Below, one piece after another: positions 44,313 through 47,024 of a DNA stretch of 64,000 nucleotides (positions are counted from its first letter, which is position 1; every line of letters starts with the position of its first letter). Source of the DNA: Crocinitomicaceae bacterium TMED114 (lineage in GTDB: Bacteria > Bacteroidota > Bacteroidia > Flavobacteriales_D > Sanyastnellaceae). The notes below the pieces were generated by a model, which was given only the letters and a program-made list of their open reading frames with translations, was not told the DNA's origin and ran no database searches. Location of the stretch: NCBI GenBank assembly GCA_002172485.2, contig NHFP02000004.1:175817-239816 (forward strand), in the 5' to 3' direction. Made by a program: the position numbers and the translations under genes.

Positions 44313-45311
44313 GTGCGCGTTCTCATCGTCGGACAAGGCCTCGCGGGCACGCTGGCCAGCCATGCCTGTCTGCAACGAGGCTGGGACGTGCACGTCGTGG
44401 ATTCTGGTGAACACTGTGCGTCCTCCGTGGCCGCTGGCATGTACAACCCCATGTCCTTCCGGCGCATAGTCGAAGTCTGGGATGCCCGGCTGCACTTGGA
44501 CGCCATGCTGGCCACCTACGCCGACTTTGAGTCCATTCTACATGACACCTTTCTCCATCCGCTCCCCATTCAGAAACGCATTCCCAACCAAGAGTATGCA
44601 GCCCTCTGGAACTCCAAATGCGACCAGATTCCGTGGATCGAACCTGTATCCAAGCTGACCACCGGCGCACAAATCGGGCCCGTGAAAGGTGGGGGATGGG
44701 TGAATTTGCCCAAACTCTTGGTCTCTTGGCGCCAGCATCTGACTTCGCTCGGCCGATTCAGCCGGCAGAAGTGGACCCCCGCTGACAACGACGCGAACTG
44801 GGACGCTGTGGTCCACTGTCGCGGCGTCCATGAGCGCTTTTCTCCGCAGCTAGAGACCCTTGACATCCGCGCCAATCGAGGGGAAATCCTGACCATTGGG
44901 ACGAAGGGCCACACCATCGCCGATGACCTCATTGACAACTTCGGAAAGTGGACCCTGCCCATGGCGCCTGGACAGTGGCGGCTCGGCGCGAGCTATGAAT
45001 GGAACCGCACCGACCTCGACCCCACCGCCGAGACACGCGCCTTCCTGCTCGAACGCCTCCAGCAGGCCCACACCACCGACGTTCGCGTTGACGTGACAGC
45101 CCATGATGCCGGGCTCCGGCCCGTATCCAAGGACAGACGTCCCGCGGTGGGTCCGAGACCGAGTCGGGATGGGCATTTCGTGTTCAATGGCCTTGGCACA
45201 CGCGGCGTCCTCATCGGTCCACGGTGGGCCCAACACCTCGCCGACGGGATGGCTGGTGTGAACCACTGGGACCCCCAAGTCGACCCCGCCCGCTTGCAGA
45301 TGACCGATTGA
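44313..45311 (+). CDS. FAD-dependent oxidoreductase (DAO family)
   Basis: A 332-residue protein from GTG 44313. VLIVGQGLAGTLASH is the dinucleotide-binding Rossmann loop, and HVVDSG follows at the end of the second strand. ANRGEILTI and the C-terminal GLRPVSKDRRPAVGP with FNGLGTRGVLIGP match the D-amino-acid-oxidase-like (DAO/GlyOx) fold. The substrate is not clear, but an amine is typical of the fold. The 5-base gap to kbl suggests one operon, so a link with glycine or threonine metabolism is possible. Confidence 0.78.
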   Translation: MRVLIVGQGLAGTLASHACLQRGWDVHVVDSGEHCASSVAAGMYNPMSFRRIVEVWDARLHLDAMLATYADFESILHDTFLHPLPIQKRIPNQEYAALWNSKCDQIPWIEPVSKLTTGAQIGPVKGGGWVNLPKLLVSWRQHLTSLGRFSRQKWTPADNDANWDAVVHCRGVHERFSPQLETLDIRANRGEILTIGTKGHTIADDLIDNFGKWTLPMAPGQWRLGASYEWNRTDLDPTAETRAFLLERLQQAHTTDVRVDVTAHDAGLRPVSKDRRPAVGPRPSRDGHFVFNGLGTRGVLIGPRWAQHLADGMAGVNHWDPQVDPARLQMTD

Positions 45312-45330
45312 TTTCATTTTTTCGTGAAAT
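45311..45330. promoter_or_regulatory. Palindromic operator before the GbsR-like regulator gene
   Basis: ATTTCA-N8-TGAAAT is a perfect inverted repeat with 6-base arms, ending 2 bases before the regulator ATG (45333). The spacer carries TTTTTTCG, a weak -7-like element, so a bound protein would block transcription or leaderless translation. The same TTTCA-N8-TGAAA core stands 2 bases before the ferritin ATG. Confidence 0.55.
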
Positions 45331-45332
45331 TA

Positions 45333-45815
45333 ATGGCGCAACCTGACACAGCTCCAACTCACTCGGAAAGCGCGGCTGCACAGCTTTTCATGGAAAAATG
45401 GCCTGCCATCTTGAAGAGTTGGGGGCTCTCGAAAACCGCTGGCCGCATTCACGCCTATCTCCTGGCTGAAGGAACCACCCGCAGCCAAGACCAGATCATG
45501 GAGGCCCTGGACATCAGCCGCGGGGGGACCAGCACACAGCTCTCTATTCTGGAAAACGCCGGGTTGGTCAACCGATTGCGCATTCTGGGCCACCGAAACG
45601 ACCAATTTCGGGCGGTCAGTGACCCCATCACCTTGTTCAGCGCCCTACAATTGCGCCATTTCCAACAGACACTGCGACCTTTACAAGACATGGGGCTCAG
45701 CCTGGGTGCGATCGCCAGCCAGCAAGACCTCGCTTGGCTCGACCCCATTCAAGGTCTGGGACAACACCTTGAAACTCAACTCACCATTACAGAATACCTG
45801 ATTGAATCCCAATGA
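45333..45815 (+). CDS. GbsR/MarR-type winged-helix regulator
   Basis: A 160-residue cytoplasmic DNA-binding protein. Residues about 15-95 match the GbsR branch of the MarR superfamily: PAILKSWGLSKTAGRIHAYLL, TTRSQDQIMEALDISRGGTS (recognition helix), LSILENAGLVNRLRILGHRNDQFRAVSD. The C-terminal helices (about 100-160) should dimerise. GbsR proteins in Bacillus control osmolyte genes; the signal here is unknown. ATG 45333 is preferred to GTG 45324, which lies inside the operator. Palindromes before this gene and ferritin suggest self-control and ferritin control. Confidence 0.8.
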   Translation: MAQPDTAPTHSESAAAQLFMEKWPAILKSWGLSKTAGRIHAYLLAEGTTRSQDQIMEALDISRGGTSTQLSILENAGLVNRLRILGHRNDQFRAVSDPITLFSALQLRHFQQTLRPLQDMGLSLGAIASQQDLAWLDPIQGLGQHLETQLTITEYLIESQ

Positions 45816-45842
45816 TTTATGATGTCATCAATCGCCTGTTTT

Positions 45843-45862
45843 GTTTCAGTAAAATTTGAAAT
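45843..45862. promoter_or_regulatory. Palindromic operator before the ferritin gene
   Basis: GTTTCA-N8-TGAAAT repeats the arrangement before the regulator gene: TTTCA-N8-TGAAA core, ending 2 bases before the ATG (45865). The spacer plus right arm contains AAAATTTG, close to a -7 element, so operator and promoter overlap. Confidence 0.55.
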
Positions 45863-45864
45863 AC

Positions 45865-46371
45865 ATGCTTGACAAGCAAATTGAAGCGGCGCTCAATGCC
45901 CAAATTGAAATGGAGGCCCAGTCCTCCCATTTTTACCTCGCCATGGCTACTTGGGCGGAAACCAACGGCCTCAATGGCACCTCCGCATTCCTTTACCGTC
46001 ACAGTGATGAGGAACGCGAGCACATGCTGAAATTGGTCCACTTCGTGAACGAACGTGGTGGAACGGCTCGCATTCCTGCGCTGAGCGCCCCAGCGGCAGA
46101 ATTTGACGGTCTCAAGGGCATCTTCACCAAGCTGCTCGAACATGAAACGAAAGTGACGGCCAGCATCAATGAAGTGGTGGACCTGTGCCTTTCAAGGAAG
46201 GATTACACCACCCACAACTTCATGCAGTGGTACGTCGCGGAGCAAATCGAAGAAGAAGCGCTGGCCCGCACCATCATGGACAAACTGGCGATGATCGGTT
46301 CCGATTCTGCAGGCCTGTATCTCTTCGATCGGGACTTGGAAATGCTCGAACCTGCAGAAGACGGGAAATAA
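45865..46371 (+). CDS. ftnA: Non-heme ferritin
   Basis: Ferritin stores iron as a mineral inside a 24-subunit shell after oxidising Fe(II). The 168-residue product from ATG 45865 has the four-helix ferritin fold. Ferroxidase-type residues are in NAQIEMEAQSSHFYLAMATW, HSDEEREHMLKLV and YVAEQIEEEALARTIMDKL, and the fifth helix region (AGLYLFDRDLEML) is present. No heme-ligand Met of bacterioferritin is seen. The TTG at 45856 is inside the operator and unlikely to be the start. Confidence 0.93.
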   Translation: MLDKQIEAALNAQIEMEAQSSHFYLAMATWAETNGLNGTSAFLYRHSDEEREHMLKLVHFVNERGGTARIPALSAPAAEFDGLKGIFTKLLEHETKVTASINEVVDLCLSRKDYTTHNFMQWYVAEQIEEEALARTIMDKLAMIGSDSAGLYLFDRDLEMLEPAEDGK

Positions 46372-46412: not shown

Positions 46413-47024
46413 ATGCTCCGCACGACACTGCTTCTTTTCGGACTTCTGCTTCCGCTGCTTCACACAGCGGTACGAGGGGCCGAAGTGCCGCATATAAACG
46501 GGGCCGATGAGGCGCCGGTGTCAGACCCCGAAATTGACCGTTCGCCCATCTGGGCGAGGATGTATGCCCAATACCTCTTTTTCCTGGGGCGGGAAATGTT
46601 TTGGCCCGATCTCGACCAGCGGGCCTCCTTCCAGCTGGCTGTGGTCAATTGGCCCAATCTGGCGGAAGAACTTGGTTCCTTTCTGGAAGGCCGGTCCATA
46701 GCAGGCATGCCCGTAGAGCTTGTCACACTGGACGCCGATGCCCTTGCTGCAAACAAACAGGATTTCACCCTGCTGTTCCTCGGCGGAACGCGTCAAGATG
46801 CCGAGCGGGAAACCTTGGAGTCCGCCATCCGGAAATGGAACCGGAAAGGCAATCGGAACGCGCTGGTCATCACCGATGACCAAGAGGTAGAGGGCCACGA
46901 CCTCATCTTCCGCCGACTCAAGGAGGGGGAAGACCTGCGCTTGTGCGTGGCCGCTGCATTGCGCTCCCTCGAATCCAAAGGGCTGGAACTGCCCGCTGCA
47001 TTTGCCAAACGCCAATGTCCATGA
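46413..47024 (+). CDS. YfiR-family (DUF4154) periplasmic protein
   Basis: A 203-residue protein from ATG 46413 with a signal peptide (LLLFGLLLPLLHTAVRGA). The mature part fits the YfiR fold: MYAQYLFFLGREMFWPD (the kA.fiynFakyveWP strand), ASFQLAVVNWPNLAEELGSFL, GMPVELVTLDAD, DFTLLFLGG, NALVITDDQEVEGHDLIF and LRLCVAAALRSLESKGLELPAAF at the end. In Pseudomonas, YfiR is a periplasmic inhibitor of the HAMP-GGDEF enzyme YfiN. Here the operon partner has HAMP plus SpoIIE. It overlaps the next gene by 4 bases (ATGA). Confidence 0.75.
   Translation: MLRTTLLLFGLLLPLLHTAVRGAEVPHINGADEAPVSDPEIDRSPIWARMYAQYLFFLGREMFWPDLDQRASFQLAVVNWPNLAEELGSFLEGRSIAGMPVELVTLDADALAANKQDFTLLFLGGTRQDAERETLESAIRKWNRKGNRNALVITDDQEVEGHDLIFRRLKEGEDLRLCVAAALRSLESKGLELPAAFAKRQCP

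Follow-up and report, generated by a model that had tools for sequence, protein, structure and literature searches.

Predicted paired operators of a GbsR/Mj223-like regulator at its own gene and at a ferritin gene in an uncultured marine flavobacterium

The window, that is, the whole stretch of DNA that was analysed (64 kb, 62% G+C), comes from the uncultured marine flavobacterium Crocinitomicaceae bacterium TMED114. It contains a GbsR/Mj223-like regulator gene with one palindrome on either side, followed by the gene for a ferritin. The features of the locus are compiled here, with the two palindromes named as predicted operators:

44313..45311, + strand: FAD-dependent oxidoreductase of the DAO family (Pfam DAO, 1.1e-22)
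45312..45329, no strand assigned: predicted operator 1, core TTTCATTTTTTCGTGAAA, ahead of the regulator gene (pattern match and conservation)
45333..45815, + strand: GbsR/Mj223-like MarR-type regulator, a winged helix-turn-helix protein of 160 aa (Pfam HTH_5, 1.7e-7)
45844..45861, no strand assigned: predicted operator 2, core TTTCAGTAAAATTTGAAA, its end 3 nt from the ferritin start (pattern match and conservation)
45865..46371, + strand: non-haem ferritin of the FtnA type, 168 aa (Pfam Ferritin, 7e-38)

The oxidoreductase gene, whose stop codon abuts operator 1, is the conserved upstream neighbour in many relatives. Directly after ferritin lies a YfiR/HmsC-like (DUF4154) gene (window positions 46413-46910), and such a gene adjoins ferritin in several relatives too, genomes without the regulator included. 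The full palindromes read ATTTCA-N8-TGAAAT (45311-45330) and GTTTCA-N8-TGAAAT (45843-45862), and both stop 2 bases short of an ATG (45333 and 45865, respectively), in full agreement with the first-pass annotation of this DNA, which had described them as matched sites before the regulator and ferritin starts.

The best PDB profile match of the regulator is Mj223 (1ku9, 3.4e-15), the protein which served as the template in GbsR modelling (PMC6207618). An AlphaFold monomer model (mean pLDDT 82.7) displays a winged helix-turn-helix and long C-terminal helices, and Foldseek searches with this model gave 1ku9 (1.1e-7) and 4nb5 (TM 0.72-0.74) as the best hits, such that profile and model both identify an Mj223-like winged helix-turn-helix with a C-terminal helical part, and the earlier placement in the GbsR branch is upheld. 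The protein scores far below the cut-off of the CudC equivalog model (24.7 bits, cut-off 218), and its neighbours are the oxidoreductase, ferritin and YfiR-like genes, not the glycine betaine synthesis or Opu transport genes that surround the osmostress subgroup, outside of which the aromatic cage for choline or betaine is absent (PMC6207618). For the ferritin, the PDB matches are ferritins (e.g., 3bve, 1.8e-42), and E17, Y24, E49, E50 and H53 occupy the corresponding positions of E. coli FtnA, as seen by inspection of the alignment; the ferritin domain together with these ferroxidase-centre residues identifies the FtnA type. No clear canonical −33/−7 promoter was recognized around operator 2 and the ferritin start.

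Within the window, a pattern search found the exact core TTTCA-N8-TGAAA in these two copies only. The genome-wide scan which the first-pass annotation had proposed returned three exact cores in the organism's own genome (1.73 Mb, about 68% complete), two of them flanking the regulator gene and the third in coding sequence, where each strand has an open frame (202 and 275 codons); the reversed control pattern gave no copy in this genome. At 62% G+C about 0.28 exact cores are expected per 1.73 Mb and 0.01 per window, and both places are conserved in relatives, in accord with the earlier judgement that chance is an unlikely origin. In the genus, one other exact core was read per genome, each of them inside an open frame or overlapping one, and relaxed as well as cross-genus scans for a wider regulon yielded, among the matches read outside the locus, only coding or unconvincing ones. 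A conserved TTTCAAAATCCCTTGAAA present in eight genomes of the genus was considered as an extra site and discarded, both copies read being part of a long coding frame.

The genus was sampled with 17 genomes, 14 of which carry the regulator beside ferritin, one of them (G013) twice, resulting in 15 loci; in another genome, G002, the locus is broken off at a contig end. Each of these 15 loci has the palindrome ahead of ferritin with 8-10 of 10 matches (9 of 15 exact, the others 8-9 of 10), always at a distance of 1-4 nt from the start; shuffled upstream regions score at least 9 of 10 in 0.7% of cases. The regulator's own site is equally persistent, with 9-10 of 10 matches in 14/14 genus loci that reach it. 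Where the regulator stop lies about 550 nt from ferritin, as in G013, the palindrome still abuts ferritin. The two regulator-ferritin loci of G013 (L009, L032) both have operators, and a ferritin site of this genome is altered symmetrically to ATTCA-N8-TGAAT. In G012 (L016) the regulator frame is seemingly shifted, by an assembly error or because the gene is decaying, and both palindromes are kept. Two further genomes, G003 and G005, retain the order oxidoreductase-ferritin-YfiR-like and lack both the regulator and any site. In the ferritin tree the site-bearing sequences cluster with G003 and G005 outside, at modest support; because the latter share one branch, they do not represent two independent losses. 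Phylogenetic footprinting, by which the first-pass reading could have been refuted had the sites not been conserved, thus left it standing.

Beyond the genus, the exact palindrome precedes the regulator gene in 30/30 other family loci fetched. In a phylum-wide draw it was present in 26 of the 27 best-matching regulator loci; for the more distant homologues the figure was 1 of 22, and shuffles reach at least 9 of 10 in 1.5% of cases. Of 16 loci tested outside the genus, 12 use the TTG of the right arm as the −33 box, 19-20 nt before TAnnTTTG (one of the 12 having CTG, and one genome being counted twice among the 16), and in 9/16 the −7 element lies 4 nt before the regulator start. Within the genus, a −7-like element starts at most 2 nt past the palindrome end and 3-5 nt before the start codon in 10/14 loci. 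In these relatives, the palindrome accordingly overlaps the core promoter of the regulator's own gene; the window species has the palindrome and, after operator 1, a degenerate −7 position which reads TAATGGCG and overlaps the regulator ATG. The equal 2-base offset of both palindromes, which the first-pass annotation had pointed out, is coincidental for the regulator: in most relatives the regulator start is further downstream, with the −7 element between palindrome and start. For ferritin, the short gap of 1-4 nt is conserved.

Early on it was suggested that the site may block a leaderless start. Transcription in F. johnsoniae starts 4-5 nt after the −7 element (PMC6847099); if the same distance applies, the regulator mRNAs of those relatives would be leaderless or nearly so. 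In cultivated Flavobacterium, the majority of mRNAs carry leaders (PMC6847099, PMC9723704). By promoter geometry only, the suggestion may hold for the regulator genes of most relatives; for the two genes of the window it cannot be demonstrated. In the window at large, a Shine-Dalgarno-like motif precedes 3 of 48 called genes, and four of five TAnnTT(T/C)G matches upstream of genes end at a distance of 5-9 nt from the start codon, a hint that leaders may be very short.

A second palindrome following the regulator gene is by no means confined to the ferritin loci. Outside the genus, 33/63 loci have it no more than 150 nt from the regulator stop (2% in shuffles). Of these sites 29 are exact; the other 4 score 9 of 10, and two of them extend into the end of the regulator gene. 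This second TTTCA-N8-TGAAA after a GbsR-like gene is widespread in Bacteroidota (L131-L154; family loci L067-L077). In several family members it is located 2 nt before the ATG of an epimerase-family or a small membrane protein gene, and in other loci a DCC1-like or DUF2071 gene follows. In one group (g16) the regulator is followed by an operator, a membrane protein gene and then ferritin, which has no operator of its own; in another (g5) regulator and ferritin are adjacent and operator 2 is absent, hence adjacency alone does not equal control. For homologues of the epimerase elsewhere in the genus, 10 loci were read; these gave only two matches of 9 of 10 and none that was exact. As judged from the sequence comparison, the arrangement is not peculiar to TMED114; it is a widespread predicted two-site module, and ferritin here takes the position that usually belongs to other targets (epimerase, DCC1-like, DUF2071 or small membrane proteins). 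The layout with operators at the regulator's own and at the next gene is probably ancestral. The simplest history we infer is that ferritin moved behind a pre-existing second operator in the genus of the window; alternatively, the site may have newly formed before ferritin.

The palindromes are, with considerable confidence, explained as predicted operators of the regulator encoded between them, which would repress both its own gene and ferritin until released by a signal. It can be rationalized that a regulator dimer would read TTTCA and TGAAA, one half-site per winged helix, over the A/T-rich 8-bp centre. Bound to operator 1, it would block its own core promoter; autorepression by such promoter occlusion is well supported by the position of the site in relatives and would apply by extension to the window. 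On operator 2 the regulator would cover the stretch immediately ahead of the ferritin gene, the expected place of the −7 element and of the transcription start, and judging from this position it may block ferritin transcription. Release would then be caused by some signal, perhaps iron, a small molecule, or redox or light stress, such that ferritin and regulator rise together. The combination of autoregulation and ferritin control, proposed by the first-pass annotation, gains in weight through the co-conservation of gene and sites in 14 genomes, their joint absence in 2, and the presence of the predicted operator at the promoter of the regulator gene itself in a broad range of Bacteroidota.

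Other readings of the two sites have to be weighed. The regulator might bind both and activate ferritin, or activate one gene and repress the other, and the ferritin gene without a recognizable core promoter is what might be expected of an activated gene. However, with its gap of 1-4 nt to the start codon, operator 2 is placed downstream of the normal position of an activator, in relatives operator 1 shares bases with the −33 box or the spacer, and GbsR, OpuAR and CydE all work as repressors (PMC6207618); repression rather than activation is what we infer from these positions, and activation appears unlikely. Somewhat less probable is the involvement of another transcription factor controlling both genes, conceivable in so far as the tie between regulator and sites, and with it binding, is deduced from sequence comparison. 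Such a factor would have to account for sites which track the presence of the regulator gene, which are found at its promoter throughout a wide Bacteroidota set, and whose AT-centred copies are nearly restricted to the regulator locus in the genomes scanned. A function at the RNA level, with hairpins at the 5' end of the mRNA hiding the start codon and controlling translation, is marginally less probable still: both palindromes can fold (−8.5 and −5.1 kcal/mol) and the start codons are beside them, yet TTCA/TGAA is the same in every regulator locus (14/14 in the genus, 35/35 others) and does not covary, several ferritin sites are altered on one side only, and no Rfam match was obtained. Furthermore, the −7 element lies downstream of the palindrome at most regulator genes, which places the palindrome outside the transcript from that promoter. 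The hairpin reading was rejected on account of the near-invariant half-sites. A chance pair of AT-rich inverted repeats, for which the shortness of the motif and the AT-rich intergenic DNA might be invoked, is of negligible probability given the 0.28 copies expected genome-wide and a position that is conserved throughout the genus and, in the case of the regulator site, well outside it.

Taken as operators of the regulator, the sites define an autoregulated GbsR/Mj223-like MarR repressor, as predicted from sequence, with a conserved paired-operator module whose target has been swapped to ferritin. It seems an even question whether this represents a widespread, so far undescribed Bacteroidota module, in which a GbsR-like autorepressor uses TTTCA-N8-TGAAA at its own and the next gene, with exchangeable targets; the usual targets may form a stress response, and iron storage would have been put under that signal in one marine genus. 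The usual targets might conceivably act in light or oxidative stress, but the literature search did not support this, and nothing useful was found on a connection with light stress or with the neighbouring genes. The regulatory site was apparently retained while the controlled gene changed.

In an earlier survey, the neighbourhoods of 73 GbsR-like proteins, mainly from Euryarchaeota and Bacteroidetes, gave no function (PMC6207618). The operator and targets described here probably concern part of these proteins, and provide a concrete predicted operator and target list for the Bacteroidota members. Literature searches found neither a description of the operator for GbsR in this bacterial group nor, in the collection searched, a paper with GbsR, the MarR family and ferritin together; the present proposal introduces a ferritin regulator from outside the usual iron-sensor families.

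MarR and MepR are MarR-type repressors that regulate their own genes through a palindromic operator within the promoter. The predicted module resembles them in that a palindrome of some 18-20 bp lies over the core promoter and a second operator is present at a neighbouring target gene, and differs in the TTTCA/TGAAA half-sites, the Bacteroidota-type −33/−7 promoter and the ferritin target. Among known regulators of ferritin are also IdeR/DtxR. Fur (with RyhB) and Irr belong here as well (PMC7762939). With all of these the predicted system shares the control of an iron-storage gene; they are iron- or haem-responsive families, whereas the protein encoded here is of the MarR/GbsR type, with sites apparently local to one locus. 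GbsR, OpuAR and CydE, repressors of neighbouring genes (PMC6207618), belong to the same Mj223-like winged-helix branch of MarR proteins, but their neighbours are osmolyte or cytochrome bd genes, in contrast to the predicted ferritin target of the present regulator.
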